From the IMG/VR virus record IMGVR_UViG_3300027917_000018, positions 1-64,000 of that record: 64,000 nt of DNA, one strand, 5' to 3'. This DNA comes from a virus. The translations under genes were made by a program, and so were the position numbers. Shown here one piece after another: positions 3,756-54,979 of this stretch (positions are counted from its first letter, which is position 1; every line of letters begins with the position of its first letter). The notes under the pieces are model-generated. The model made no database searches, was not told the DNA's origin, and saw only the letters and a program-made list of their open reading frames with translations.

Positions 3756-5309
3756 ATGTCGCCAACTTTTTCGCTGATCTACACGAGCGTCCGGCCACAG
3801 ATGATTGGACCTATCCTCGCCACCTGGGTCGAACGCTGCGCCAACAAGGAAGCCATCGAAATCATTCTGACCGTCGACGGTCCAGATGAAGGCTCCAAAG
3901 CGGTGGCCGCCGACCTGGCCACCAAAATGCCCATGCTGCGCTGGTTTGAGCAGCCCGAGGGGCCGTTCAACTGCGTCAAGGGCTGGAACCTGGCAGCCTC
4001 GAAAGCCACCGGCAAAGTGTTCGTCCAGGTGACCGACGACATGATGCCGCCGCAGCACTGGGACGAGGAACTGCTGAAGCTTAAGCCCGAAGGGTGGATT
4101 GACGGCGAGTTCGCCGTTCACGTGGAGGACGGCTATGTCCACGACCTCATGGTCTTAGCTATCATCACCCGCAAGCGCTACGAGCGGTTCGGTTACTTCT
4201 TCTACCCGGATTACGAGAGCATGTTTTGCGACACCGAGCTGACCACAGTCGCCTACCGGGACAAGGTGGTCATCAACGCCAAGCACCTGCTCTTCGAGCA
4301 CATGCACCCGGACGCGCAAAAGCGTAAACGGGACAAGGTTGATCTGGTCCACGCGTCCAAGGAGCGCTGGGTGCGCGGCGAGACGCTTTTCAACCACCGC
4401 CGGGAACGCAATTTTCCAATCGATGTGGGACCCCAGGCGGACAAGACAGCCAAGCCGGTAGGCTACAAGTTTTGCGTTTACACTCAGGCCACCCGCGACG
4501 ATTTCTGCCTACTGGAGGTCGGCAAGCGCATGATGGAGGAAGGCGTCAACGATTTCTTCTTCAGTATTCCAGACGAGTACTGGGCGGGCCGCCCGACGCC
4601 GGAAGAAAACATGTCGCAGGTCGAGCAGGTTGCCCAGCAGTTGCGGCAGCTCGGGGCCAACGTGCGCACCATGCGCCATCCAGTCAGGAAGTACCGCTGG
4701 CCCGGCGACAGCCGGATTACAGTTGAGACCCGCGTGCGCAATGACGCTCTGGCTGAGATTCGTCGGGCAGGATTCGAGCATGTGCTGATCGTCGATGGGG
4801 ACGAGCTGTGGAAGCGCGGCACCCTGAACTACGTTAGAAAGGTTCTCGATGAGTGGCATCCGCTTTCCATCAACTGCCTCATGATCCCCGTCGTGGGCCT
4901 GCCAGGTTACCCCATCGACGGGGCTACCGATGTGGCCGTGATCTACCTTAACTCAAAGGTTCCCTTCAAGGAATGCCGCACGCCCCACGGTGATCAGTTT
5001 CGGCTGCAAATGCCACAGGTTGTCCACTTTACCGGCACCAGAAAGACGATGGAGGAAACGATCCAGAAGCATCTGGACAGCGGCCACTACGACGATCCCG
5101 AGTACGATTTCGACTACTGGATCAAAAACGTCCTGCCCAACATTAAGCCTGGCTATCGTCACACGTTCCCGGACGGCCAGGTCGGCATCCACATGTTCAA
5201 GCGCTATCAAATCTGGCCTTCTGTTCGGCACTGGATGCCGGAAGAGGTCACGCAGTTGCCGCAGGCGCTTCATCCCTATCTCGGTATCGAGCAGCCTGCG
5301 ACCCCGTGA
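3756..5309 (+). CDS. Two-domain GT2-like glycosyltransferase
   Basis: A 517-residue protein. The N-terminal half (about 1-215) looks like a GT-A fold: a beta-alpha start, T-V-D-G-P-D-E, then V-T-D-D-M near residue 94, the likely metal- and nucleotide-sugar-binding acidic motif. A second GT-A-like domain starts near residue 235 and has L-I-V-D-G-D-E-L-W near 346. Two catalytic-type domains in one chain could add two sugars in turn. The acceptor is unknown (virion protein, modified DNA base or host surface). A GT9-like enzyme follows. Starts at ATG 3756 in a 19-base divergent gap. Confidence 0.7.
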   Translation: MSPTFSLIYTSVRPQMIGPILATWVERCANKEAIEIILTVDGPDEGSKAVAADLATKMPMLRWFEQPEGPFNCVKGWNLAASKATGKVFVQVTDDMMPPQHWDEELLKLKPEGWIDGEFAVHVEDGYVHDLMVLAIITRKRYERFGYFFYPDYESMFCDTELTTVAYRDKVVINAKHLLFEHMHPDAQKRKRDKVDLVHASKERWVRGETLFNHRRERNFPIDVGPQADKTAKPVGYKFCVYTQATRDDFCLLEVGKRMMEEGVNDFFFSIPDEYWAGRPTPEENMSQVEQVAQQLRQLGANVRTMRHPVRKYRWPGDSRITVETRVRNDALAEIRRAGFEHVLIVDGDELWKRGTLNYVRKVLDEWHPLSINCLMIPVVGLPGYPIDGATDVAVIYLNSKVPFKECRTPHGDQFRLQMPQVVHFTGTRKTMEETIQKHLDSGHYDDPEYDFDYWIKNVLPNIKPGYRHTFPDGQVGIHMFKRYQIWPSVRHWMPEEVTQLPQALHPYLGIEQPATP

Positions 5310-5310
5310 G

Positions 5311-5640
5311 ATGCTTCGGCCAAAATACCCGAATCGGAGAACTTACCGGCCCAACTTCCCGCTGGCCAAGGCCGACGAGGAGCTGCGGCTTTTGCACGGG
5401 ACAATTACGGGCCGCGACGCAGAGCAGGCAATCCTGGACTATCTGCGTGAGCACCTGGGCGAACCCATCTTGTCGTGGAAGGTCTGCTACGAGCTATGCG
5501 TAAGCCGCCGACCTTTGATTCGCAAAGAGCAGGTTTTCTACCGGAGGCAGATGACGCGGCTGATAGCCGAACGGAAGGTGGTGAGGTACCACCGGGGCCG
5601 TTTCCGGGACAAAGTCAGGATTTCTGAGGCTTGGGTTTAG
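5311..5640 (+). CDS. Hypothetical protein, possible winged-helix fold
   Basis: A 109-residue basic protein starting at ATG 5311, one base after the previous stop. It is rich in Arg and Tyr at both ends, with a central helix-turn-helix-like stretch (about 38-90) followed by a strand-like basic end. This resembles a small winged helix, but I cannot name a family. It lies between two glycosyltransferases. Confidence 0.55.
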   Translation: MLRPKYPNRRTYRPNFPLAKADEELRLLHGTITGRDAEQAILDYLREHLGEPILSWKVCYELCVSRRPLIRKEQVFYRRQMTRLIAERKVVRYHRGRFRDKVRISEAWV

Positions 5641-5642
5641 CT

Positions 5643-6902
5643 ATGCAATCGATTCAAAACACACAATGGCAGGTGGCGACGTTCAATGCGCCCGTCGTTT
5701 TCAACCGCGACCGCGAGGAAACCTGGTTCATGAACCCGGTTCGCCGCTACGTCTTCAACGGGCACCACCTTGCCAAGCTACAAGAGCACATCGAAACGGT
5801 CTCCGATATACGCGGTTGCGCGGACTATAGACCGCTCCAGGCGGGTGCGGCGTTGAACGGCAGGCGTATTTTCGTCGAGCGTTTTCGGGATCGCGGAATT
5901 GGCGATCTGCTCTTTTTGACCGGCCCGTTATCCTTGATGCAGCACCTGAGCGGCGGTACGGCCAAGTTTCACGTCTACGCTTTTGCGGATCGCGGCCAGG
6001 TGCTTCAGCACAGCCCGTTTTTAGAGCACGGCACGGTGTTTGTTGGCCCCACGCACTACGACGACTTCAGGCATTATGCCTATCAGTGGCTCGTGGACAG
6101 CGCCACCGAGTCCTGCCAAGAAGGCGATCAGCACAACGTCTACGACGCGCTTTATGCTCAACTCGGAATGGACCCAAATAGGATCGAGCCGCGCTGGAAG
6201 CGGCCCGTAATGTCCATTCACCCCAGCGAGCTGGACGGTCTGAACCAATTCTTCTTTCGGCGCTGGCTTGACCGGCATATTGACCTACGGACTAGCGGCT
6301 ATTACGTCGTTGCTCCGTTTACCCATTCACCGATGCGCCTGCCCGGCTATCAGTTCTGGCAGACCGTGATCAAGGACCTGAGTCAAAGGCGGCCCGTAAT
6401 CGTGATCGGCAACCCCAAGGCCGGTATTCCACACATGGACATGGACCCAGCGGACTTTGTGGCCAGCCTCGATGAAATGGGCGAAAACGTAATCAACCTC
6501 ATCCCCGAAGACGTGAGCCCGACGCTCCGGTTCGTTTGCGTTTTGATCGCAAGCGCCAACTGCGTTGTTTGCCCGGATACCGGCCCGTTATACATCGCGC
6601 AGGCCAATCGGACGCCAGCCATCAGCATTTGGGGTCCACACGATCCACGCGTGCGCATCGGATACGACCAGGACTACATGGATTTGGCCATTTGGAAGCC
6701 CGATTCGTGCCTGTACGCGCCCTGTTTTTGTTTCGGATCGTTCCCCGAGCGAAAGTGCCCCGAGGGCGGCGGACAAAAAATCTGCGAGGTCATCAAGGCA
6801 GTCTCACCGAACGACGTTCTAGCTCTGTTGGAAAGGGTCGAGTTTCGCCACCCGAGGCAAATCGGCGTTTTGAAACCGCGACAACCTGAAAACGAGTCAT
6901 GA
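5643..6902 (+). CDS. GT9-family glycosyltransferase (heptosyltransferase-like)
   Basis: A 419-residue protein from ATG 5643, two bases after the previous stop. The N-terminal half has the start G-I-G-D-L seen in GT9 enzymes. The C-terminal half has C-P-D-T-G-P-L-Y-I-A-Q-A then W-G-P-H, the donor-binding pattern of ADP-heptose:LPS heptosyltransferases, and a Cys-rich loop with C-P-E-G-G-G-Q near the end. GT9 enzymes use nucleoside-diphosphate sugars to build surface glycans. A second GT9-like domain is found in the fusion at 53246. Two copies of CGGCCCGTTA and two of CGGCCCGTAA lie inside this gene. Confidence 0.75.
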   Translation: MQSIQNTQWQVATFNAPVVFNRDREETWFMNPVRRYVFNGHHLAKLQEHIETVSDIRGCADYRPLQAGAALNGRRIFVERFRDRGIGDLLFLTGPLSLMQHLSGGTAKFHVYAFADRGQVLQHSPFLEHGTVFVGPTHYDDFRHYAYQWLVDSATESCQEGDQHNVYDALYAQLGMDPNRIEPRWKRPVMSIHPSELDGLNQFFFRRWLDRHIDLRTSGYYVVAPFTHSPMRLPGYQFWQTVIKDLSQRRPVIVIGNPKAGIPHMDMDPADFVASLDEMGENVINLIPEDVSPTLRFVCVLIASANCVVCPDTGPLYIAQANRTPAISIWGPHDPRVRIGYDQDYMDLAIWKPDSCLYAPCFCFGSFPERKCPEGGGQKICEVIKAVSPNDVLALLERVEFRHPRQIGVLKPRQPENES

Positions 6903-24420: not shown

Positions 24421-26049
24421 CTACGGGTTCAGGTATTGCCGGTCGATCACTTGAAAGACCGGCACGATTTGGTTTGTGGTTGCACTGTAATTCTCAATCG
24501 ACGTGTTTTGATAGGCCAAACAGATGATGCGGATGTCCACAGCCTCGCCGCTGGGCAGGCTGAATGTGTGCTCGCCGGTCGTCACGTCTTCGGCCCCGGT
24601 TCCAGGAACTTCGTCGGTCGTCCCATAGTAGAACACGCGAATCTCGGTATGATTTTGCAGGCCGGTCAGGGTGATGTTGACCGAGGACACAAAGATGATG
24701 AGCGCGCCGTTGGACCGGTAGGACGGCGTGGACATGCCGGTCAGGTTGACGGTGACGGTTCCGGTGGTTCTCAGGAATTTAAGGGCGGCGTCGTCGGTGT
24801 TGTTTGACCCGTTGTAGTTGGCGAACGTAATTTCATTCAGGGTCAAATTTGTTCCAGTGTCCGTGCCGAAGGCAATGGCGTGGCAGTTGTTAACCCCGGT
24901 GAGCCCCTTGCTGAAGTACATTTCGTCCAGAAGGCCGTTTGGATCGATGGTACCGGTCCAAAACAAGGCCGCCGTGTCAGTGGCAACCTGGGAGGCTACG
25001 ACCTCGCACCCGGTCAGGTCGGCTCCACGCGGGGTAATCGTGCCGCAGCGCTGAAACAAGGTATTCGTGACTGTGGAGTTTGGGTTGAATGCGAACGTGT
25101 CCCATCGGATGAACTGACAGGCGTCAATGTTTACGTTCGCGTCCTCCAGCACCGCGAGTTTGCCCTTATTGACGGTGCTGATCGGCGAATTACCGTCCCA
25201 AATCGAGTTGAAAATGATGTTGCTCCAGTTGATCCACGAGTTTGGATTTTGAATCTGAATCTGCGTGAAATTCGCACCAACGCGAGGGCAGTCGTCGAGC
25301 GTGATCTGCCTGTCTGCGTCGCTGAAATTGACGATGGTGCCGTAGCCGAGCGTAATCAGCCCCTTCCAAAGGTAGCCGCCACCCTGCTCACGGAACAGGC
25401 CCCAGCGGTTGGACTGCTGGTCATTTTGCAGGGCCATGCCGTCGAAAGTGGCGTAACCGTTGGTTTCGTCGCCTCCCCAAACGCGGTATTGACCGCGACC
25501 CCACCGGGCCGCGTCAGCAGCGAAGGGATTTCCTTTGCTGATGCCTGTGGTCGTGGAAGCCGCAAGCCCAGCGTACTGGTAATTGCCAGCTGTTGGTGTG
25601 CCGACCGTACCGTCGGCGGTCACCCTGGGGTCGACGGCGACATTTTTCCATCCGCCGTACGGGTTGGGCGGGTAGTCCTCACCGCCCGAGAGAAAGTACC
25701 TGAAAGCTCCACGGCTATTGCCTGCGACAACCATCTGGCCTGGGAAGGCGGAAGAAGTGCCCGCTACGTCGTCTAGGGCGTTGGGCGCAGCCCAATACTG
25801 CCAAATGAATATGGCACCGTCTGTTGGCAGCGCTGGATTCGTCCCCGCATTGGCGATAAGGGTGCATTTGCCGGTCTTGGTCATCGTCGATGACATGCAG
25901 CCCGCACCCTGGATGTAGTAGTCCGTCTCGATCGACAGCGTCTGCGGAACGCCATCGTCCCAGTTACCGTCCGTGGACTCGTCCCAGTTCGTCGTGGCCT
26001 CGGCGAGGTCGAACGTGCTTAGGTCAGTCTGGTAGGTTGGGGCTCCCAT
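24421..26049 (-). CDS. Large beta-rich virion protein (tail/fibre-associated)
   Basis: A 542-residue protein, poor in Lys and Glu and rich in Asn, Thr, Gly and aromatic residues, with repeated short strands in the middle that suggest a beta-helix or beta-sandwich. The N-terminus holds several W-D-E-S-T-D-G-N-W-D-D-G-like stretches. No enzyme motif is visible. Probably a tail-surface or receptor-side protein. Its 5' end overlaps the upstream gene by 31 bases. Confidence 0.6.
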   Translation of the reverse strand: MGAPTYQTDLSTFDLAEATTNWDESTDGNWDDGVPQTLSIETDYYIQGAGCMSSTMTKTGKCTLIANAGTNPALPTDGAIFIWQYWAAPNALDDVAGTSSAFPGQMVVAGNSRGAFRYFLSGGEDYPPNPYGGWKNVAVDPRVTADGTVGTPTAGNYQYAGLAASTTTGISKGNPFAADAARWGRGQYRVWGGDETNGYATFDGMALQNDQQSNRWGLFREQGGGYLWKGLITLGYGTIVNFSDADRQITLDDCPRVGANFTQIQIQNPNSWINWSNIIFNSIWDGNSPISTVNKGKLAVLEDANVNIDACQFIRWDTFAFNPNSTVTNTLFQRCGTITPRGADLTGCEVVASQVATDTAALFWTGTIDPNGLLDEMYFSKGLTGVNNCHAIAFGTDTGTNLTLNEITFANYNGSNNTDDAALKFLRTTGTVTVNLTGMSTPSYRSNGALIIFVSSVNITLTGLQNHTEIRVFYYGTTDEVPGTGAEDVTTGEHTFSLPSGEAVDIRIICLAYQNTSIENYSATTNQIVPVFQVIDRQYLNP

Positions 26050-26489
26050 TGTCTTTCCTTGTTCAGAGCCGCTCCAAGAGCGTTAAAAACCTCCTGCGGC
26101 GTCCTGCCTCGGCTGGACAGCAGCACGTGCTTGGCGCTTCCGATGCCAATGACGCAATCAATGCCGTTTCGGAGCATCGACCGAATAAGATCGCTGGCTA
26201 AGCCCATCTTCCAGGCCGACGGAGTCGTGGGGTCGACTAGGCCGATGGCCGTCTGTTCGTCGACGTACTCAAAAACGACCCCACTTCGGTCGGGCCGGAG
26301 GTCGTCGGGGAAGTCCTGGCGGCGCAGCCACAGGCAGGTGTATTCCGCGCATGCGGCAGGGCGGTAAGACTCGTGCCAGATGCGGCAGCTTGTCCGCGTA
26401 CAGTGCTCGCACCAGTCTCCGGCCTTCTTACCGAGCGCAGCTACCGGGACAAGTTTGCAGCATAGGGCACATGGTCCGCACTGGCGCAT
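26019..26489 (-). CDS. YkgJ-like Cys-cluster (zinc/iron chelating) protein
   Basis: A 156-residue protein. The N-terminal C-G-P-C-A-L-C-C (Cys4, 7, 10, 11) and further Cys residues up to about residue 50 (C-E-H-C, C-R-I, A-C-A-E-Y-T-C) match the arrangement of the YkgJ/UPF0153 putative zinc- or iron-chelating family. A mixed alpha/beta C-terminal part follows. Its purpose among structural genes is unclear; a modifying or metal-delivering role is possible. Confidence 0.65.
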   Translation of the reverse strand: MRQCGPCALCCKLVPVAALGKKAGDWCEHCTRTSCRIWHESYRPAACAEYTCLWLRRQDFPDDLRPDRSGVVFEYVDEQTAIGLVDPTTPSAWKMGLASDLIRSMLRNGIDCVIGIGSAKHVLLSSRGRTPQEVFNALGAALNKERQWEPQPTRLT

Positions 26490-26504
26490 CGCTTAGGGCA
26501 ACTA

Positions 26505-28406
26505 TTACGGATTGGCATAGTTACGTTCAAGCGGCGCGATCAAGGAAACGCTGTTCGTAACCGCCCGAGCGATCGTGCTCGTGGCCCGGACATACTGGCT
26601 GGTGTTTAACCCGATGGCAACCGCCGTAATCGGCGCATCCAGCGGCGGCGTCCGGCCACCCTGAATGTTGCCGTCATAGTTAAACGACCGCTGAATCGAG
26701 GTCTGCCCGCCAACCGTTCCTGTCATGTCGACGCTCACGTTGTCCTGAACGAGGATCGCGGAGGTCGAATTGAACGGGTTGTAATAGAGCGTCACCGAGG
26801 GGCCGGGGCCTTCGTTGGTGAAGAACTCGTCACCGCTGTCCGCCTTTTTGACCCACACGCTGCCCGAATAGCCCTGGCCCTGGGCCTCGTACATCCCGTT
26901 GTTGTTCGTGCCGACGAACCCGCTGACCAAAAACTGCTCGAACGGGCTGATTTCCGACAGGTCGGTTACGGTGCCGTAGCTGGTCAGCGTGCCGTAGAGT
27001 GATCCGGCGCTGGTCATGGCCAGGTCGGTGCCGGTGACCGAATGGGTGTAGGTGAACCAGACCCAGTAGGTGGAGGCCGTGTCGTTGACGACGTTCGCGC
27101 CGAAGTTGATCGTCAGCGCGGCCACGTACGGATAGGTCCTTGAAACGCCGCCGTTGTCGTAGAATTCCAGCCGGTTCGTGTCCGAAGCCTGGAAGCCCTC
27201 GATGATGACGCCCGAACCGCCGCCGTTGGGGTTGGTCGGAATGCCGCCGCCGCAGATCAGTGTGTCACCGACAAAAAGCAGCAGCTCGTCGGCAATCTTA
27301 CCGATGACCGTTTGGTCCGTGGAGTCGATGTCGCTGTTCTGGCGCAGGAGGTACTGGACCTTCGTGTAAATCTCCTCGGCGCTCGCCGTAATCGGCGTGG
27401 CTCGTTGGAGCGTAAACGAAACGTTTGTGTCGCCCGTGAATGGGCCACCGGAGATGTTGACCGTCGTGCCAGTGGCCGTTGTGATCGTGTAGATGCCCTT
27501 GTCGACGCCTTCATGGACTGTCAGGGTGCCGCCGTCGTAGGTCGTGGCGGGGATGCCGCCTTCTGCTGACGTAAGCGTCGTGCCCGAGGTCGTGCCGTCG
27601 ACGCCAGACATCGTGCCCGCGTCGATGACGATGCCGAAGTTTCGGCCCACGCCTGGCGTGTCCACGTCCCGCGTAAACGCCTGGTCGAAGTACCGAATGA
27701 GGATTTGCGTGTACGGGGTCGTCGTGGACACGGTGGCGTCATCATCGGTGATCTGGAGGTCGGTGCCCGTCGATAGCGGGAACCGGTACGCCTGCGGGGC
27801 AAGAGACGTAACACCGATGTCCGACAGTGTGGACGATCCGTAAAGCTGCGCGTACTCACGGACGTAGATCGTAAACACCGTTCGGTAGTCGAAGTCAGGC
27901 GATCCGTCACCGTTGTCGTCCCGGTAGGTCTGAACGGCCTGGTTAACCTGGCCGGTCAACTGCGTGTTGGTCGCGCCCACGCCCTGGTTGTAGTAGAGCT
28001 GATCGTCGGTCTCGATCGTGCCCAGGCCGATGATACCGGCCCATTGCTGGGTGAAGTTGCCTGCTGTATTTCGGACCGACCAGCCTGCGTCACGGAGAAG
28101 GTAGCGCCCCGCATCGTCGTACATGTCCCAGCCGTCCACGAACTCGAAGGACTCATCCGTAATCGGGACAAGCGGGAATGGGAAAGCCGCCAGGTTTTTG
28201 CTGTTCGGGTCGTTCTTCCATTCCTCCTTCAGGAAGGAATACAGGGCCTTCAGCGTGACACCATTTTCGTTTTGAACGCCTGAACTCGACAGATTGCCCG
28301 TCACTGTGAGCCGAATGGTCTTGTCGTTTACATTGACGAAGACCTCGGTCGTGCCGGTATATGTCGCCTCATCATTCAGATCGTCGGGATCAATGATTTT
28401 TGCCAT
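26505..28406 (-). CDS. Large virion structural protein
   Basis: A 633-residue protein rich in Thr, Gly, Asn, Asp and Tyr. Residues 1-70 contain a K-T-I-R-L-T-V-T-G-N-L start followed by L-K-A-L-Y-S-F-L-K-E-E-W, and the rest is dominated by short beta strands. This organisation is common in tail or baseplate proteins of large phages. CGTAAACG lies 10 bases before its ATG (28417-28424), one of several starts with this motif. Confidence 0.6.
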   Translation of the reverse strand: MAKIIDPDDLNDEATYTGTTEVFVNVNDKTIRLTVTGNLSSSGVQNENGVTLKALYSFLKEEWKNDPNSKNLAAFPFPLVPITDESFEFVDGWDMYDDAGRYLLRDAGWSVRNTAGNFTQQWAGIIGLGTIETDDQLYYNQGVGATNTQLTGQVNQAVQTYRDDNGDGSPDFDYRTVFTIYVREYAQLYGSSTLSDIGVTSLAPQAYRFPLSTGTDLQITDDDATVSTTTPYTQILIRYFDQAFTRDVDTPGVGRNFGIVIDAGTMSGVDGTTSGTTLTSAEGGIPATTYDGGTLTVHEGVDKGIYTITTATGTTVNISGGPFTGDTNVSFTLQRATPITASAEEIYTKVQYLLRQNSDIDSTDQTVIGKIADELLLFVGDTLICGGGIPTNPNGGGSGVIIEGFQASDTNRLEFYDNGGVSRTYPYVAALTINFGANVVNDTASTYWVWFTYTHSVTGTDLAMTSAGSLYGTLTSYGTVTDLSEISPFEQFLVSGFVGTNNNGMYEAQGQGYSGSVWVKKADSGDEFFTNEGPGPSVTLYYNPFNSTSAILVQDNVSVDMTGTVGGQTSIQRSFNYDGNIQGGRTPPLDAPITAVAIGLNTSQYVRATSTIARAVTNSVSLIAPLERNYANP

Positions 28407-28426
28407 AGCTCAAATTCGTTTACGGG

Positions 28427-28756
28427 TTACAGCTCTTGCACTAACATGTCCGAGATGAGGCCCTGGTCGTTACGCTTCACCGTGAAGCGGTATTGAGACT
28501 TCCCCTGGTTCATCACGAAATTGTCCTGGATGTGTGGCCTGCCGTCCGGCGGGCCTGTTTCGTCCGATTTCTCGGGCTTTTCAGGCCGCTCCGAAGACAT
28601 TTGCTGCAAAACCTGGGCGACCAGCGCCTTCAAATCCTGCGGCGGAGACCCCGGCTGCCCGGCTTCCTCCCCGTTGAACACGATGACCGTGCCTTCCTGG
28701 AGCGAAGCCGCCCGGCGCGGGACCATACTGTCCAGCAACGTTCGTGCTCTCGACAT
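28427..28756 (-). CDS. Hypothetical protein, 109 residues
   Basis: The first gene of the leftward structural block. A basic N-terminus, a Pro/Gly/Glu-rich disordered centre, and a beta-looking C-terminus (Q-Y-R-F-T-V-K-R-N-D). It may be a small virion or assembly protein. A TAGTTA element stands 6 bases before the ATG. Confidence 0.6.
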   Translation of the reverse strand: MSRARTLLDSMVPRRAASLQEGTVIVFNGEEAGQPGSPPQDLKALVAQVLQQMSSERPEKPEKSDETGPPDGRPHIQDNFVMNQGKSQYRFTVKRNDQGLISDMLVQEL

Positions 28757-28762
28757 ACGCCT

Positions 28763-28768
28763 TAACTA
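28763..28768 (-). promoter_or_regulatory. TAGTTA element, minus strand
   Basis: On the minus strand GCGTAGTTAAGGCGT precedes the ATG at 28756, with 6 bases between hexamer and start. It opens the leftward structural block. Confidence 0.5.
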
Positions 28769-28803
28769 CGCGTGCCGCTGGGTGATCCCGTTCTTACCGA
28801 CGT

Positions 28804-29064
28804 ATGCGAATCGTCAAATACCGCAAGAGCAGCGACGGACCCTGGCAGCGTGGCATCCTTCACGGCTTCCTGGCCTCGGGTGGAACAACGGTCACCGCGA
28901 TCGTCGAGCAAATCGAGGGTCCCAACAAAAGCATGTGCGACACCTGCGCTGTCACCCTGGAGACTTTCGGCTTCGAGCAGGGGACCGAGGACTTCATCCG
29001 GGAGCAGCAGATGGCTCGGGCTCGGATGATGGGCGGGCCGGGCGGCCCGATCATTCCGGGTTAA
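28804..29064 (+). CDS. Hypothetical protein, 86 residues
   Basis: A small protein with a beta-rich N-terminal half, a central C-D-T-C pair and a Gly/Pro/Met-rich C-terminus. The paired Cys may bind metal. It is a lone rightward gene between a divergent start region and a terminator. Confidence 0.55.
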   Translation: MRIVKYRKSSDGPWQRGILHGFLASGGTTVTAIVEQIEGPNKSMCDTCAVTLETFGFEQGTEDFIREQQMARARMMGGPGGPIIPG

Positions 29065-29086
29065 TTTGCTCCGTTATCGGAGCAAA
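29065..29086. terminator. Terminator hairpin
   Basis: TTTGCTCCG (29065-29073) pairs with CGGAGCAAA (29078-29086) around TTAT. It ends the 28804 gene and marks the left edge of the AT-rich methyltransferase island. Confidence 0.7.
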
Positions 29087-29165
29087 ATTGGGCAGACCTC
29101 CACAGGCGTTCACAAAAATTCCATTATTTGTTTGACTGGTCAAGCCAAAAAAGTAAACGTGAGGC

Positions 29166-29912
29166 GTGATCAAGCTGTTCCACGGCAATTATGCCGACAA
29201 GATCGATGGACGTTTCGATCTGATATTGGTCATGCCGCCGTGGAACATGCCGGGTCGCAAAATAAATGTAGGAGACCGCGCTTACTTTGACGGTTTACCG
29301 GAGTCGTCTTACGAGCTGAGCCAAGTAGCTCTTTGTGTGTGGTGCCACGCACACCTGGTTAAAGGTGGACAGGTCGTTTATCACCATCAAAATAGGCGTG
29401 TGCGTGGCCGCTTGATCAGCCCGCTTGCGTGGCTGAGTGCTAAAGAGCGCCACCGACTTGTGGTTCAAGAGGAAGTCGTCATCGCAAAGGGCAATTCCAA
29501 CAATTACGGTAAACATTTTCTTTTGCCCACGACGGAGCGCCTCTGGGTACTGCGCAGAATTGAGGATAGCCCTTCCGACTGCTACAGCGAGGCAAAGCCT
29601 GACGCTCTCTCAGAGCGCTGCGGTAACAGCACGCACGATCTTTGGCGTTTTAGTGGCCGAATCCACGGTGCCCCGCACAGCGCTGTGATGCTACCCGAAA
29701 TGGCCTACAGAATAATTCAGAAATGGAGCAGGCCAGGTGCTTTGGTCTGTGATCCTTACCTTGGCACCGGTACCACCATGCTTGCGGCACACCAACTGGG
29801 CCGATCCTTCGTGGGCGCAGAAATTAAGCTGGCTTTCTTCAAAATCGCTCAAAGATCGCTAGAAAAACTAAACCGAACCTATGCGCACCAAAGTAACCGT
29901 CACAAAAGTTAA
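29166..29912 (+). CDS. Beta-class DNA methyltransferase with an MPPW catalytic motif
   Basis: A 248-residue protein, GTG start at 29166. The catalytic motif IV (normally D/N/S-P-P-Y/W) is M23-P-P-W26, after the strand F-D-L-I-L-V. The AdoMet motif I, D-P-Y-L-G-T-G-T-T (196-204), comes near the C-terminus with V-G-A-E after it. This IV-before-I order is the beta class of N4-cytosine or N6-adenine methyltransferases. Met in place of Asp/Ser is unusual and may change specificity or inactivate the enzyme. The DNA is visibly richer in A+T than its neighbours. It overlaps the next gene by 32 bases. Confidence 0.8.
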   Translation: MIKLFHGNYADKIDGRFDLILVMPPWNMPGRKINVGDRAYFDGLPESSYELSQVALCVWCHAHLVKGGQVVYHHQNRRVRGRLISPLAWLSAKERHRLVVQEEVVIAKGNSNNYGKHFLLPTTERLWVLRRIEDSPSDCYSEAKPDALSERCGNSTHDLWRFSGRIHGAPHSAVMLPEMAYRIIQKWSRPGALVCDPYLGTGTTMLAAHQLGRSFVGAEIKLAFFKIAQRSLEKLNRTYAHQSNRHKS

Positions 29913-31266
29913 GGACCTTGCCTCCGAAATAAGAATTCCAGCGTTCAAAGACGTTTCCTATGAAATGCTTAAGCGCTTTCCTGGAGTCCGTCCGCTGTTG
30001 GTCGCCGTTGGCAAGCCGAAGGTTATGCACGCGACGTACCATCGAGGGCAATATGAATTTGGGGTATGGCTTACGGCGGAAATGGCAAAGGCGCTGGGCG
30101 AGGCCGAGCGCTACGTGCCCAGGGACAAACAAAAAGGCGACTTTCTAAAACAACGAACCAAGGAATTTTCCAAAATACAGGTCGATGGCGGTGGTAAGCC
30201 TGGTTTGGGAGAGGCGCTGGTGACCACTGAGGGAAAAATCGTGGAAAAGAACCACTGGATTCAGGCCATCGGCGATTCAAAAGTTGCACAGTTCATCAGA
30301 TTCAGAGTTGGTGTGAGCCCGGATTTGGAAGGCCCCAGCGGTAACAACAGGGCGCGGCACATCAGGCTCAGGTTGGCTCTTGACGGAAAACCGGTGCTGT
30401 GCAGCGTCCGCGAATGGCCTTATGTTTCAGGGTACTATCGTCACTACTGTTTGGTCCGCAATGCGGTCGATACGGCGTACGCAAAGTTCTTGGTTGCTAA
30501 CCGGCCTTTAATTAACTGGGTTGATGGCTACCTTCCTACCGTTATCAATCGAGAGGCCATGAAGACAGCGCTTTTCGTTGCGGTACAAACTATGGGCAAA
30601 GATAAGATGCTTCCATTTCTGAAAGCACTCAAAAACAAGGATATTTCGACTCCGTGGGTGGCCGAGTACTTGCAAATACCCGTCCTCGCTAGAGGTAAAG
30701 AAAGGGACGCTGTTTGGGAAATGTCCCAAAGTTTCTTGATCGGTATGCGGGACGGCAAAAGACCCAGCACAAAAATCGTGTCCTCCCGTAGATGGGACAA
30801 AACAGTGGGAGAGTCGGTCGTTGAAGACCAGTTGCACGACCAGAACGACGTGGCCGTCGTTCGCAGGGCGCTTGGCGTCACCAGAGAACAGGCGAAACGC
30901 CTTGTTGGCTACGCCAGGTCTTGTGATGACTTTGAGGCCGCCTTAAAGCATTTGCGGGGAATACCGAAGCAGGAGCTTGTGTTTTTGATCGGTGAGGCCA
31001 AGCGCCTTGCTCGGTCTATGACTACCTTCAGCTTGCGGGCCGCCCTTCGTTTCGTGATCGGACATTACAATGACAAATACTTATCCTACATGCTTGGAGG
31101 GATCACTCACGCGATGTTGGTGGATAGCTGGAATGCTGTCCGCAACGACAGCTCGCGAAGATCGTTGACCCCGTTGGAACAGCTTAGCTTCGATCTGCCG
31201 TGGTTGGAAACTTACTATCAGGAATCCGTAGCCAAAATCAAAGCCTATGAAAAAATCTCGCGTTAA
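29881..31266 (+). CDS. Unknown 461-residue protein paired with the methyltransferase
   Basis: A basic, mostly helical protein with a few strand segments in the first third. I see no Walker, PD-(D/E)xK, HNH or GIY-YIG motif that I can defend. Segments such as V-V-R-R-A-L-G-V-T-R-E-Q-A-K-R-L-V near residue 320 resemble a helix-turn-helix. It overlaps the methyltransferase gene by 32 bases and shares its lower G+C, so the two were probably acquired together. A nuclease, specificity or DNA-binding partner is possible, but no function is assigned. Confidence 0.65.
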   Translation: MRTKVTVTKVKDLASEIRIPAFKDVSYEMLKRFPGVRPLLVAVGKPKVMHATYHRGQYEFGVWLTAEMAKALGEAERYVPRDKQKGDFLKQRTKEFSKIQVDGGGKPGLGEALVTTEGKIVEKNHWIQAIGDSKVAQFIRFRVGVSPDLEGPSGNNRARHIRLRLALDGKPVLCSVREWPYVSGYYRHYCLVRNAVDTAYAKFLVANRPLINWVDGYLPTVINREAMKTALFVAVQTMGKDKMLPFLKALKNKDISTPWVAEYLQIPVLARGKERDAVWEMSQSFLIGMRDGKRPSTKIVSSRRWDKTVGESVVEDQLHDQNDVAVVRRALGVTREQAKRLVGYARSCDDFEAALKHLRGIPKQELVFLIGEAKRLARSMTTFSLRAALRFVIGHYNDKYLSYMLGGITHAMLVDSWNAVRNDSSRRSLTPLEQLSFDLPWLETYYQESVAKIKAYEKISR

Positions 31267-31402
31267 AGTCACAGGGCCTAAAAAGCAGTTTGGCCCTACC
31301 GAGCCTAGAAGGTGCCCGATCGACGGTCAGCTGTTTGCGTCGCCAGCACAAAAAGACGAACACATGCGAAAAGCGCACGGCTTTAAGCGGGAGCGGGTTT
31401 AA
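31247..31402 (+). CDS. Mini zinc-finger-like protein, 51 residues
   Basis: ATG 31247 to TAA 31402, overlapping the previous gene by 20 bases. Lys-rich N-terminus, then C-P-I-D-G-Q-L-F and H-M-R-K-A-H-G: a C2H2-like finger in which the second Cys is replaced by Asp. It is the third gene of the methyltransferase island and ends just before a terminator. Confidence 0.6.
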   Translation: MKKSRVKVTGPKKQFGPTEPRRCPIDGQLFASPAQKDEHMRKAHGFKRERV

Positions 31403-31436
31403 TCACCCCGTCGAGCAGAACGACATCGGACCGAAA

Positions 31437-31470
31437 ACAAAAGCCCCGCCCAAGCGCTGGCGGGGCTTTT
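31437..31470. terminator. Bidirectional terminator, right edge of the island
   Basis: AAAAGCCCCGCC pairs with GGCGGGGCTTTT around a short loop, with T and A tracts on the two sides. Confidence 0.9.
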
Positions 31471-31519
31471 GAGTTGAGCGGCTAAACGCGGTGTGTATTT
31501 AGGCAAATGCGATAAGCGT

Positions 31520-31873
31520 ATGCCTGTATCCATCAGAAAACTCGACGGAAAGTACCGGGTCAGCACGCCCGGAGGCGTCAAGGCCCGCAGCACTACCAAA
31601 AAGAAGGCAGAACGCCAGGCTACCCTCCTGCGCGCCATCGACCACGGCTGGGAGCCCACCGGGGAACCGGCCCGTGAATCGGTTGAGGACGCCGGGGCGC
31701 GCCTGGCCAAGCTGATTCTGGACGGGGACAACGCGCCGGTCGACGAGCCACTGGAGCGATCCTTCGTGGAGCCGACCAAGTTTGGGGCCAAGGGGCTGAC
31801 CTCGCCGGAAGGGAAAACGGCGGGCAAGTTCCGCACGCCGCGCAACTGGAAAGTCGGCCACGCCATGAAGTGA
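31520..31873 (+). CDS. Small basic phage protein (conserved hypothetical)
   Basis: A 117-residue protein from ATG 31520; nine earlier in-frame codons reach a TTG-type start but look non-coding. The N-terminal part K-L-D-G-K-Y-R-V-S-T-P-G-G-V-K-A followed by T-T-K-K-K-A-E-R-Q belongs to a small, widespread phage family of unknown function. The rest is linker-like and basic. Overlaps the next gene by one base. Confidence 0.65.
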   Translation: MPVSIRKLDGKYRVSTPGGVKARSTTKKKAERQATLLRAIDHGWEPTGEPARESVEDAGARLAKLILDGDNAPVDEPLERSFVEPTKFGAKGLTSPEGKTAGKFRTPRNWKVGHAMK

Positions 31874-32205
31874 TGCCCAGCCCGGAGGCCATCGTTCTCG
31901 CCAGCCAAGTCCTGGAAATGGACTCGGTGAGGCGTTTTCTGGCCAAGCACGACATCTGGCGCACGCGGGAGCTGAAGGTCATTCCCGACCAGGTCTACCA
32001 GGGCTACTACAAGATTCCTCTGCTGGATCGCCGAGGCGAAGGCTGGTACAATCTGTTCCGGCCCCAAAAGAACCCCAAGGCCGAGTTGAAAAAGCGGCTT
32101 CAGCACCTGGTCCAGAATCGGCGGGGCTACCAGCCAGGCGACATTTTCCTGAGCCCTTGGGGCCGTTTTCTCGTGACCGACGTTCTTGGTATTAAGGAAA
32201 TCTAG
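31873..32205 (+). CDS. Hypothetical protein, 110 residues
   Basis: Starts at ATG 31873 in a TGATG overlap. An alpha/beta protein with several aromatic residues (W-Y-N-L-F-R). It is immediately upstream of the tape measure gene, a place often used for tail assembly factors, but no similarity is recognised. Confidence 0.55.
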   Translation: MPSPEAIVLASQVLEMDSVRRFLAKHDIWRTRELKVIPDQVYQGYYKIPLLDRRGEGWYNLFRPQKNPKAELKKRLQHLVQNRRGYQPGDIFLSPWGRFLVTDVLGIKEI

Positions 32206-32208
32206 CCA

Positions 32209-34524
32209 ATGGCAGCACCAGTACCAGCCGGAGCCGGACCGATTGGTGGAGCCACCGCCGGGCTGAGCGGCCTGGCCAGCGCCGCTACCCAGGTCGGCCA
32301 GTCGGCCAATCAAGCACAGCAGGACATCGAGAGCCTCAATGCCTCGCTTTTTTCGCTTGGCAGGATTGCGGTCGCCGGAGGTCTCTTCAAGCTGGGCGAA
32401 GCGCTCGTGGGGTACGCCAAAGACTACCTGATTTTTGGCCAAAGACAGGCGCGGGCGCTCCAGGAACAGCTTGTTGAACAGCGGCAGCAGGCGGCGCTCA
32501 TGGAGCTTCAAGCTCAGTCCGCCCGCGATATTTTGGAGGCCCTAAGCCAGCTTCCCGGCATTGGAGTCGAGCAAGTTGCCGCGCAGCAAGAGCTGGTACA
32601 GCAAGCCGAGCAGCTGGCGGAGAGCACGAGGAAGTCCGCTGAATTTGCTGAGTTCAAATTGGAGGCGCATCAGCGCCTGCGAGGCCCACTGACCTTGCTC
32701 ACCACTACGGCAGGAATCCTCCTCGGCACGTACAGGTCCTTGCTGGATTACGCCGTTGCGTTGAACAAGAGTCTGGAGCAGGCCAATACCTCCTACCGGG
32801 TTCGCAATGAGATTCTCACGCGGGGCATGGAAGTCATGCGGCGGTCCGGCGTTGCCCAGGGCGAGGTCGCCGAGGCGGCGCGGGCCTTGGTCAATTACCG
32901 CCTGGAGGAGAGCGGCAGCCTCGGCACCAACCTGGATTTGATGACGAAGATGAACGTCGCCTTGGGCGTTCACTACGAGACCAGCGCCAAGGTCGCTACC
33001 GTTTACGAAAGAACGCTCGGGCGGGGCGTGCAGATGGTGGCTGACACCGTCGCCCGGATCGCCGCCAATACGGCCATCGCCGCCGAGAAGGCCGCCGATT
33101 ACGCCTTCCACGTGGCCAGGGCAGTGCGGCTTCTTGGTCCGGGCATGCGGATGGAAAGCGAACGGATCACGGAAGTCATCGCGAACTTGGCTGGCCGCAT
33201 TCAGGAGCTTGGCGGCGACTCCGAAACCGTCCTGAACCTGTTCCAGCAGATGACCTCTGGCACCGGCATGGGGCTTTGGCTCCGGGGTCGCGCCGGGGTC
33301 ACCGCTGCCGAACTGGGCACAGCGGGCGGTGCTGAGGCGGGATTGAGGGGTGTGGCGCGGGCAATCCGCGAGCTGGTTACGGCGGACCCTGAGAGGCAGA
33401 CCGAACTGTACCTGTTCCAGCTGACCGCTGCTGGCGAGGCGTTCGGCATGACCGCGCACCAAATTCGTGACTTGTTGGACGCAGTCGATGCCTTAAACAA
33501 GCCGCTTTCGCAACAAGCCACGTTGGAGAAGGCGTTTCGGGAGCAGCAGGCGCAAACGGCCAAGTCCGTTGAGCAGCTTCGGAATGCCTGGAGAGCCCTG
33601 ATCAATCAGGCTTTCATGCCAATCTATCCGGTTATCCGATCGATCATTGACGCCGTTACGGGCCTCCTGCGGGAGCTGACCGGCCATCCTGGAGCGCTCA
33701 AGCTTGCGATGGTGGGATTGACGGCAGCTGCCCTCGGAGCGGGCGTTGCCGTCGTTAATCTGACCAGGGCTCTCGTAGGCTTGATGACCCAAACAACGTT
33801 CGGCCAAGGTGCTCTGGCAGCGGCTAGGGGAACTGTTGGAGGCCGCCTGGCTGTGGGCGGTCTTGGCTGGTTGGCCACCGCCATTCGGGTCTCTGCGCCG
33901 TACGTTTTGCCGCTGATCGGCGGGTATCTGATTGGCAGCATTTTTCGCGAGTCGCTTATCCAGTGGCCGATCTTCAAGCAGTTCGACAAGCTTACGGAAC
34001 TCGTTGCGCGCTGGTATTACGGCTGGAAGGAAACCGCCACACCCAGCTATACCCCGACTCAAAGACTCGGAGCAAAAAGCGGTATTGGTCTCTTGACGGA
34101 GGCGGCGATGGCTGGAGTCAAAGGTGATGTCGAAGCTCTTCGGGCCAGGTATTACGAGGCGACGAAGATTGGCGTTGATCCGACCAAAGGCGCGGCTTGG
34201 ATCGAAGCCGTCATGCCAAAAATGATGGCTGGGTATCAGCAACAGGAGCGCCTGAGTCGGCTGTCTCTGCCCAGCGCGGAGTCGGTCGCGGCTGAGAACC
34301 GCATCGTGGAAGGCTTCAAGCGGGCTTTGGCGGAAGTCGCTGGAGACGAACTGAAGAGCATTGGCGCACGAGGTCAAAAGAGCTTCGAGCTGAACCAGAA
34401 AATGTTGAGGTTACGGCAGGAGGGCGAGGGCCTGTACGACAAAGAGCTGTTTGAAAACACATTCAGGGAACTTGGCACGGGCGCTGGCGTAGGCTCATAC
34501 TCAGTGCCCGGCTTTGGAATTTAG
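32209..34524 (+). CDS. Tail tape measure protein
   Basis: A 771-residue protein, mostly alpha-helical, Ala/Gln/Leu-rich, with a long coiled-coil part (about 75-200) and hydrophobic segments near 155-175, 485-530 and 560-590. These are typical of tape measures, which set tail length and pass into the host membrane. It lies just before a tail-hub-like gene. It is short for a tape measure; if the usual relation of about 1.5 angstrom per residue holds, the tail would be near 115 nm (inference). Confidence 0.7.
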   Translation: MAAPVPAGAGPIGGATAGLSGLASAATQVGQSANQAQQDIESLNASLFSLGRIAVAGGLFKLGEALVGYAKDYLIFGQRQARALQEQLVEQRQQAALMELQAQSARDILEALSQLPGIGVEQVAAQQELVQQAEQLAESTRKSAEFAEFKLEAHQRLRGPLTLLTTTAGILLGTYRSLLDYAVALNKSLEQANTSYRVRNEILTRGMEVMRRSGVAQGEVAEAARALVNYRLEESGSLGTNLDLMTKMNVALGVHYETSAKVATVYERTLGRGVQMVADTVARIAANTAIAAEKAADYAFHVARAVRLLGPGMRMESERITEVIANLAGRIQELGGDSETVLNLFQQMTSGTGMGLWLRGRAGVTAAELGTAGGAEAGLRGVARAIRELVTADPERQTELYLFQLTAAGEAFGMTAHQIRDLLDAVDALNKPLSQQATLEKAFREQQAQTAKSVEQLRNAWRALINQAFMPIYPVIRSIIDAVTGLLRELTGHPGALKLAMVGLTAAALGAGVAVVNLTRALVGLMTQTTFGQGALAAARGTVGGRLAVGGLGWLATAIRVSAPYVLPLIGGYLIGSIFRESLIQWPIFKQFDKLTELVARWYYGWKETATPSYTPTQRLGAKSGIGLLTEAAMAGVKGDVEALRARYYEATKIGVDPTKGAAWIEAVMPKMMAGYQQQERLSRLSLPSAESVAAENRIVEGFKRALAEVAGDELKSIGARGQKSFELNQKMLRLRQEGEGLYDKELFENTFRELGTGAGVGSYSVPGFGI

Positions 34525-52715: not shown

Positions 52716-53249
52716 GTGCGCGTGCCTTGGCCTCAATATCCACTGGTTTCTGGCTTGTTGGCGATCACCCGCCCGGATCGATTGGCTTTCGGTCGGGCCA
52801 CGCTAATGAGCTTCATGGCTCAAGACTGGCCGTGCCTGGAAGCAGTGGTATTCAACACGACCGATAGGAAGCTCAACCCGCCACGGGGCATCAGGGAAAT
52901 ACGGCTTAGAGCGATGCCACAGGCTCAGATGCTTGGCCTCTGTCGCCACAACGCCGACGGCCAGTATTGCGTGGTTCTGGAAGACGATACTTGGTACGGC
53001 CAGGGGCTCGTCACGACGCTGATGGAGCACGCGGAGCAGGACGCCTTGGTGCTCCTGCGGCGCAAGGTTCGTTATTCGGTCCAGGAGCAGCGTGGGTACT
53101 TGGTCGAGGACGACAGCATTGTGTGCCCGCTGTTTCCAAGGGTCCACCCAGCACCCTATGGTCCAAAGCTGTCGGAGATGGCCGCTCAGTTTCAGTACGT
53201 TCGGCACGCCGATGGCCCGGTTGACCTGATGGTGAAGTTCACGCGATGA
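52716..53249 (+). CDS. Small GT-A-like glycosyltransferase
   Basis: A 177-residue protein, GTG start at 52716. L-E-D-D-T-W-Y near 89-95 is a DxD-type motif, and the early A-I-T-R-P-D-R with F-M-A-Q-D-W-P resembles short GT2-like enzymes. It opens the sugar-modification island and overlaps the fused enzyme by 4 bases. Activity is inferred. Confidence 0.6.
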   Translation: MRVPWPQYPLVSGLLAITRPDRLAFGRATLMSFMAQDWPCLEAVVFNTTDRKLNPPRGIREIRLRAMPQAQMLGLCRHNADGQYCVVLEDDTWYGQGLVTTLMEHAEQDALVLLRRKVRYSVQEQRGYLVEDDSIVCPLFPRVHPAPYGPKLSEMAAQFQYVRHADGPVDLMVKFTR

Positions 53250-54979
53250 AAGCTCTGGAAAAGGCAGTGCGCGAGTGGTCTTCGATCAAAGGCTACGCTC
53301 CTGAGCGCTTCGACCCCTTCAGCGTGGATACCGGCATCAAGGTTTACGATCGGAATAGGCCGCGCAGGTTTTACCACAGCGGCGACATCGGCGACATCAT
53401 CTATGCTTTGCCCACCATGCGGGCCTTGGGCGGAGGAGAGCTGGTCCTGGGGCCGCAAATGCGCCAGGATGTGCGGGCCACGGTTCGGGCGGCAATGACC
53501 GAGAAAATGGCCGCGATGCTCCGTCCGCTGCTGCAATTGCAGAGCTACGTCAAGTGGGTGGCCTTCGCGCCCGCAATGCCGGAAGTGGACGTTGACCTGA
53601 ACAAGTTCCGCGAGGAGCTGGTAGTCGACAGCGCCGCCTTCCGGCGCACAGGCCGTCTGCTGAATCTCGCCGAGGCACACTTGAAGCGCTTCCGGCTGGA
53701 TTTGCGCGAATGCCAAAAACCGTGGCTGGTTGTCGACCGGGCGGTGGCCATTAAAGACCGGCCCGTAATTCTGCACCGCTCGCCCCGGTGGCGGAATTCG
53801 GATTTTCCTTGGCAGGACGTGCTCGAAAAATACGGATCGCAGGCACTCTTTGTCGGACTGCGAAGCGAGTACGACGACTTCGTGTCCGACTGGGGCGCTG
53901 ACCTGCCGTTCTACCAAATCAGCGACTTTCTGGACATGGCCAGGCTGATCGCCGGGTCCGAGCTGTTCATCGGTAACCAGAGTTTTCCATACGCCCTAGC
54001 TGAGGGCATGAAGAAGACTTCGCTGCTCGAAGTATGGCCGGATGGTCCGAACTGTCTGTTTCAGAGGCCCAACGCCAACTACGGCCTGGGCAAAAACGTT
54101 TACATTCCAAACCTCAAGTTCAGTATGGTCGAAGAAAAGCTGACTGAATGCCCGATGTGCGGCACTGCCGACGCTGTCCCCGTCAGGCGGAGCGCGGACA
54201 TCGTTTCCTGCAACAGCTGCAATCTCGTTTACCTGCGAACTCGCATGAGCGCCGACAGCATGGAGGAGCACTATCAGCGGTACGCTGACGGCACATCTCA
54301 CATGCGGCTGCCTGAGCGGATCGAGGAAGTCCGCACGTCCGGCTTGCGTCGGGAGTACTTCATGCAAGAGCTTCTGGAGCACGTCAAATCCGGCGCGTTA
54401 CTGGACATCGGGAGCGGGTGGGGTGCCTGGCTGTCCAACGCCAGGGCCAAGGGCTTTTCGGTGCGCGGTGTCGAAATATGCCGTAAAATGGCCGATTTCG
54501 CCTGTTCGGTCCTCGGCGTTCCCACTATGACTCGGCAGCTTGAAGACTGCGGCTTCGCCAACGCCGACTTTGACGTGGTCACGGCGATTCACTCGCTGGA
54601 ACACCTGCCCTACCCGAAAACGGCGTGGGAGACTGTGCGCCGCATTCTTCGTCCGGGCGGTTTCTTCTGCGGCATCGTTCCCAACTTCGAGTCATTGTGC
54701 TCCAGAGCACAGAAGGAGGGATGGATGTGGCTGGACCCGAACATGCACTACGTCCACTATACCGAAAACACCCTGCGGCAGTGCTTGGAACGCTTCGGGT
54801 TCCAGCCAATTCGCATTTACACCGCGACCGGTGACTTTGATCCGGGCCAGGTCGCCAAAGTGGTCTCAGCCAGCTCACAAGTACCGATCGGCGAAGAGGA
54901 GATGAAAAGCCGCATTGAGGCAGTCTGCGCCAGCGGCGAGGGAGAGGAATTACGATGGTTTGCACAAAAGAAGAGCTGA
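53246..54979 (+). CDS. GT9-like domain fused to a SAM methyltransferase
   Basis: A 577-residue fusion. Residues 1-295 have the GT9 start H-S-G-D-I-G-D-I-I-Y and a second half with I-A-G-S-E-L-F-I-G-N-Q-S-F-P. Residues 300-330 are a zinc ribbon (C-P-M-C 302-305, C-N-S-C 322-325). Residues 375-500 are a class I methyltransferase: L-L-D-I-G-S-G-W-G (385-393) and F-D-V-V-T-A-I-H-S-L-E-H-L motifs. The zinc-ribbon/methyltransferase pair resembles sugar methyltransferases. It may add a methylated sugar in one step. Next gene overlaps by 25 bases. Confidence 0.75.
   Translation: MKALEKAVREWSSIKGYAPERFDPFSVDTGIKVYDRNRPRRFYHSGDIGDIIYALPTMRALGGGELVLGPQMRQDVRATVRAAMTEKMAAMLRPLLQLQSYVKWVAFAPAMPEVDVDLNKFREELVVDSAAFRRTGRLLNLAEAHLKRFRLDLRECQKPWLVVDRAVAIKDRPVILHRSPRWRNSDFPWQDVLEKYGSQALFVGLRSEYDDFVSDWGADLPFYQISDFLDMARLIAGSELFIGNQSFPYALAEGMKKTSLLEVWPDGPNCLFQRPNANYGLGKNVYIPNLKFSMVEEKLTECPMCGTADAVPVRRSADIVSCNSCNLVYLRTRMSADSMEEHYQRYADGTSHMRLPERIEEVRTSGLRREYFMQELLEHVKSGALLDIGSGWGAWLSNARAKGFSVRGVEICRKMADFACSVLGVPTMTRQLEDCGFANADFDVVTAIHSLEHLPYPKTAWETVRRILRPGGFFCGIVPNFESLCSRAQKEGWMWLDPNMHYVHYTENTLRQCLERFGFQPIRIYTATGDFDPGQVAKVVSASSQVPIGEEEMKSRIEAVCASGEGEELRWFAQKKS

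Follow-up and report, generated by a model that had tools for sequence, protein, structure and literature searches.

A methyltransferase without its catalytic motif and a 461-residue protein in the partner slot: a low-GC phage island best read as a cassette of restriction-modification descent

What are three overlapping genes in a low-GC island of a phage for, when the first encodes a methyltransferase (MTase) that departs from its family at the catalytic motif and the second a 461-aa protein directly behind it? The window, i.e., the whole 64,000-nt stretch of DNA that was analysed, comprises bases 1-64000 of a 202,975-base IMG/VR virus record and encodes a T4-like major head protein, a head protease, a contractile tail sheath, and a UvsX-like recombinase. 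No MCP homologue of at least 60% identity was found in annotated phages. MCP relatives were present in 55 viral contigs, one of them (L034) 100% identical and the other 54 at 64-84% identity; L034 shares one metagenome with L009, where the tape measure protein matches at 100% identity. Elsewhere in the window, the C-terminal half of a 577-aa ORF (53246-54979) has a weak MTase-like match (phrog_4752, E 2.1e-5).

A previous reading of the sequence only, made from the letters and their ORFs, had described three overlapping genes that are poorer in G+C and bracketed by terminators, and this description was borne out, the terminators as predicted hairpins. All three ORFs are present on the + strand with intact frames, and positions 29065-31470 form the lowest-GC stretch of 2,406 bases in the entire record, at 52.1% against a mean of 59.8% (sd 1.5). 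When a simple gene caller was trained on the codon use of native genes, it missed the MTase gene, and the 461-aa gene ranked as one of the least native. Upstream, the island is bounded by a terminator-like hairpin at 29065-29086 (TTTGCTCCG-TTAT-CGGAGCAAA; -16.0 kcal/mol when 29058-29100 of the + strand is folded as RNA), and downstream by a terminator-like hairpin of 13 pairs at 31438-31471 (-25.7 kcal/mol by RNA folding). The island thus shows the pattern used to recognize phage morons, namely foreign composition between (predicted) terminators. The single promoter-like match in 26000-34000 lies inside the MTase gene, 1 match against 2.1 expected in a search whose model phage promoters may not follow.

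The same reading had considered that the module could be mobile, for which the foreign composition speaks, but the other signs of mobility did not appear. Around the island, neither repeats nor target duplications of at least 9 bases were found, and no empty site was identified; the stretch between the MCP and tape measure genes is too diverged among relatives. Moreover, the island already lacks the palindromes that are avoided by the rest of the genome. Across the whole record, 31 of the 64 kinds of palindromic hexamer have been almost purged, with 29 absent and two occurring once each, i.e., 2 copies against about 1,880-1,900 expected under a second-order Markov model, whereas the remaining 33 kinds are near normal (1573 observed vs. 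1785 expected). RGATCY, CACCTC/GAGGTG, CCCAGA/TCTGGG, and GAGATC/GATCTC are also purged from the record. Within the island, no copy of a purged hexamer occurs, against 15.8 expected from the island's own composition. The island has therefore either been resident for some time or come from a source with a like purge. It did not newly arrive from an unpurged genome, and it has persisted here or in a lineage under similar selection. Site elimination in phages is already known (PMC6286503), and its extent in this record looks extreme. The purge is partly common to related contigs (observed/expected 2/185 in L086, 7/191 in L045, 8/175 in L049, and 10/112 in L036) and is not seen in others from that MCP clade.

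A further proposed mark of the island, the missing octamer CGTTTACG, turned out to be a matter of chance. No 8-mer is commoner in the record than CGTTTACG, which has 96 sites (30 in the window) on both strands and no conserved flanks, and related phages carry 0-3 copies per locus of 13-21 kb. Its absence from the island carries no weight because a 2.4-kb stretch is expected to contain only 1.1 copies, with P(0) = 0.32, and longer gaps between copies exist elsewhere in the record. Depletion of CGTTTACG was rejected as a marker, being not significant.

The first gene of the island (29166..29912, + strand, GTG start) encodes a 248-aa beta-type amino-MTase, as supported by Pfam, an AF2 model, and alignments. 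Residues 18-229 match the whole PF01555 domain (N6_N4_Mtase) with an E-value of 4.9e-17 and 63.1 bits (cut-off 26.7), and the SAM-binding motif I is intact (DPYLGTGTT at residues 196-204, family consensus DPxxGxGTT). Among solved structures, the nearest by sequence is 8s9m, the N4-cytosine MTase of a bdelloid rotifer (phmmer 1.1e-11), which is also the best match by fold to the AF2 model (pLDDT 81.6, 20 aligned sequences), with a Z of 24.2 and 2.7 A over 220 residues. The phage protein thus resembles the rotifer enzyme, and PF01555 enzymes generally, in predicted fold, motif I, and gene size, but differs from it at motif IV. Where relatives have TSPPYN, the phage protein reads VMPPWN (VMPPWNMPG at residues 22-30), so that MPPW departs from the catalytic pattern [DNS]PP[YFW]. 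Alignment with the SPPY of the family thereby confirmed what the sequence-only reading had noticed, a Met in place of the expected catalytic Asp/Asn/Ser. This is no single base error, since going from TSPPY to VMPPW requires three changed codons.

The replacement stands apart among the relatives. All seven aligned relatives have TSPPYN, and in the 39 relatives whose motif IV was printed there are 37 with SPPYN (four of these, L101, L102, L104, and L105, being one identical sequence), one with SPPYY (L130), and one with DPPYS (L115); the 41 listed hits also include L126, for which the segment was not found, and L117, which shows an unrelated PP segment only. The viral relatives were gathered by a scan with two peptide patterns, one of which, I[LF][VT][MS]PP[WY]N, favours SPPY or MPPW, and since this pattern allows S or M as the catalytic residue, the list may contain too few of the other variants. 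Six relatives from annotated phages were found without any such pattern, and the A2 scan of genome contigs returned no relative. MPPWNM was tried as a family signature and rejected, as its 24 viral-contig matches are not relatives of the MTase. Beyond motif IV, the MTase also lacks the conserved W106 (W106I), P176 (P176L), L179, and R231, and overall 7 of 24 conserved positions are altered in it (0-4 in the relatives).

In the rotifer N4CMT, changing SPPY to APPA abolished 4mC (PMC8885841), i.e., SPPY is needed for activity in the nearest characterised relative. Given this precedent and the loss of SPPY together with several other family-conserved residues, the phage MTase has probably lost 4mC activity. 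The alternative is that it is still active despite MPPW, having altered its mechanism or the base it prefers, and serves to protect the phage's DNA; the 461-aa protein would then be either a helper or the restriction enzyme, completing a restriction-modification (R-M) system. The kept fold and SAM motif, the intact frames, and the R-M association of the family would all fit such an enzyme, but the rotifer result and the loss of other conserved residues, e.g., W106I and P176L, argue against it, the variant assayed in the rotifer protein being APPA. We regard continued activity as somewhat unlikely. At the same time, the kept SAM motif, the kept PP, and the open frame argue against simple random decay of the MTase.

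In a tree of 27 MTases, the phage MTase groups with those of L103, L104, L106, L107, and L108 (support 95/92), uncultured phages (L104 being the locus of phage L041) to whose MTases it is 32-38% identical. Its end branch measures 1.5 against 0.30-0.75 for the five, and it departs at 31 of 68 positions conserved within the clade (relatives at 0-5), an excess that is expected in part because it branches outside the other five members. All five relatives have a partner ORF directly behind the MTase gene, overlapping it by 11 to 124 bases in four (with the first possible start assumed for L106) and lying one base behind it in L108. In the island, the 461-aa gene (29881..31266, + strand) takes the same position, overlapping the MTase gene by 32 bases, an MTase gene adjoining or overlapping its partner being the gene order expected of a type II R-M system. 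A more distant MTase relative on the Acinetobacter plasmid pANC7974.2 is likewise followed directly by a partner gene, here an annotated MvaI/BcnI endonuclease.

The clade relatives have intact SPPY, and their partners are of 169-232 aa (L103, L104, L107, and L108) or 302 aa (L106) and dissimilar to the 461-aa protein. In L103, L104, L107, and L108, the order is MTase, partner ORF, second MTase; the second MTases of L103 and L107 match DNA-methylase profiles, and those of L104 and L108 were assigned by reading their similar sequence. In contrast, no second PF01555 MTase was found in the record. The plasmid pair differs in its TSPPYN motif and in its annotated endonuclease, which has no similarity to the 461-aa protein. 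The partners are also mostly unrelated to each other, as the one shared segment, around SLRERW, occurs in L103 and L106 (hhalign E 2.8e-5), and none of the L-locus partners was named by Pfam, PADLOC, NCBIfam, or PHROGs. By our own motif reading, HIDIWVDNKSYDIKSAKK (L107) and ERDIDLVFKFGTRTVFVNCKA (L108) resemble PD-(D/E)XK cores, which would make these partners nuclease-like. The cassettes of L103, L106, L107, and L108, located around 3900-6100 of each and comprising an MTase and a partner ORF with a second MTase in three, are candidate undescribed R-M-type systems.

Phage L041 has an MCP 79% identical to that of the present phage. In L041, the cassette lies about 7.7 kb downstream of the MCP gene, on the opposite strand, compared to about 8.7 kb here, and both cassettes therefore sit in a variable stretch behind the MCP. 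Region 15578-19967 of L041 comprises the genes of the MTase and a 230-aa partner along with a second MTase-like gene; a GHKL-ATPase protein of 679 aa is also encoded there (PF13589, E 6.6e-7). With the 230-aa partner as the query against viral contigs, only the L041 phage itself matched. A search for the three island genes together in other genomes had been suggested as a check on the module; the exact triple was found nowhere else, since the 461-aa gene had no match in any collection searched, so the lack of co-occurrence named beforehand as refuting holds for the triple, but not for the arrangement of MTase plus partner, which recurs. The idea of an R-M-like system accordingly gains support from the relatives' partner ORFs, mostly with a second MTase, and from the MvaI/BcnI pair, while the earlier interpretation as a whole is only partly upheld.

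The stop-free run of 461 codons that encodes the 461-aa protein is far beyond chance, with about 3e-6 such runs expected across a record of this base composition, yet no family match for the protein was found in Pfam, PHROGs, PADLOC, or NCBIfam, and no PDB chain matched better than an E-value of 0.05, the level of a DisA match taken as chance. Homologues were absent from annotated phages and plasmids by tblastn (a Gordonia match at E 0.3 overlaps the terminase gene and was taken as chance), from viral and genome contigs in an octapeptide scan, which reaches close relatives only, and from 20 related phage records. Comparison of single sequences, a weak method, gave no similarity to the relatives' partners or the plasmid endonuclease, and the single-sequence AF2 model (pLDDT 37) is not interpretable. 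A role for the protein is thus suggested by one line of evidence, its position in the partner slot.

The third gene (31247..31402, + strand) overlaps the 461-aa gene by 20 bases and encodes a 51-aa basic protein with a degenerate C2H2-like pattern, C23-x2-D26-x3-F30-x8-H39-x4-H44. It had been called a mini zinc finger, which we could not uphold: C2H2 requires two Cys and two His, the second ligand position is an Asp, and with a single Cys the product is at best a degenerate finger. The full pattern of two Cys and two His is found in two other ORFs of the record, at 498 and 112323.

Another reading is that the island is a decaying remnant, with the MTase losing function after the cassette broke and the 461-aa gene being an unrelated neighbouring cargo ORF. 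The many lost conserved residues, the long branch, the record's lack of another PF01555 MTase, and the lack of a link between the 461-aa gene and known partners would agree with this. On the other hand, the three frames are all intact and overlapping, and the island is free of the avoided palindromes and so has persisted under selection of this kind; we therefore consider decay unlikely.

Our best reading is that the island is a cassette of R-M-type descent with an exchangeable partner directly behind an N4-cytosine-type MTase. In this phage the MTase would have kept its fold and SAM-binding motif, lost the catalytic SPPY, and most likely stopped making 4mC. The intact, overlapping frames suggest that it was kept for something else. 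It may bind SAM and DNA and serve the 461-aa protein as a subunit or regulator. That protein would be an effector acting on host or rival-phage DNA, in the slot that relatives fill with nuclease-like partners. What was observed here comprises the composition, the gene order, the family and predicted fold, the motif loss, and the relatives' partner slot, and the retained MTase serving a 461-aa effector is an account that we favour tentatively, at somewhat less than even chances. Against it stand the absence of a sequence link between the 461-aa protein and the relatives' partners or the plasmid endonuclease, the absence of a second PF01555 MTase, and the fact that the nuclease nature of the partners comes from our motif reading.

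A non-catalytic amino-MTase working with a partner has a precedent in METTL14, the non-catalytic partner of METTL3 in the m6A writer. METTL14 resembles the phage protein, by an analogy from general knowledge, in having an amino-MTase-type domain without the catalytic motif, but METTL3-METTL14 acts on RNA in eukaryotes and includes an active subunit that is a paralogue, whereas the 461-aa partner is no detectable MTase. The same precedent, along with the lost catalytic motif and kept SAM motif, could be taken to favour a pseudo-methyltransferase that by itself, as a regulator or DNA-binding protein, affects the transcription of phage or host, with the other two genes independent of it. The overlapping genes and the recurring partner slot favour joint function instead, and we think a lone regulator very unlikely.

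Returning to the cassette of R-M-type descent, its most far-reaching form is a two-component DNA-targeting system that would have arisen from an R-M cassette within phages. The amino-MTase, catalytically dead but still binding SAM, would be the recognition or regulatory subunit for a new effector family, the 461-aa protein; we put this forward as an improbable proposal. If shown in phages, SAM-binding, non-catalytic descendants of DNA MTases would be an added way of reusing R-M parts, and cassettes of an MTase plus an exchangeable partner indicate where nuclease-like phage proteins that are still undescribed may be found.
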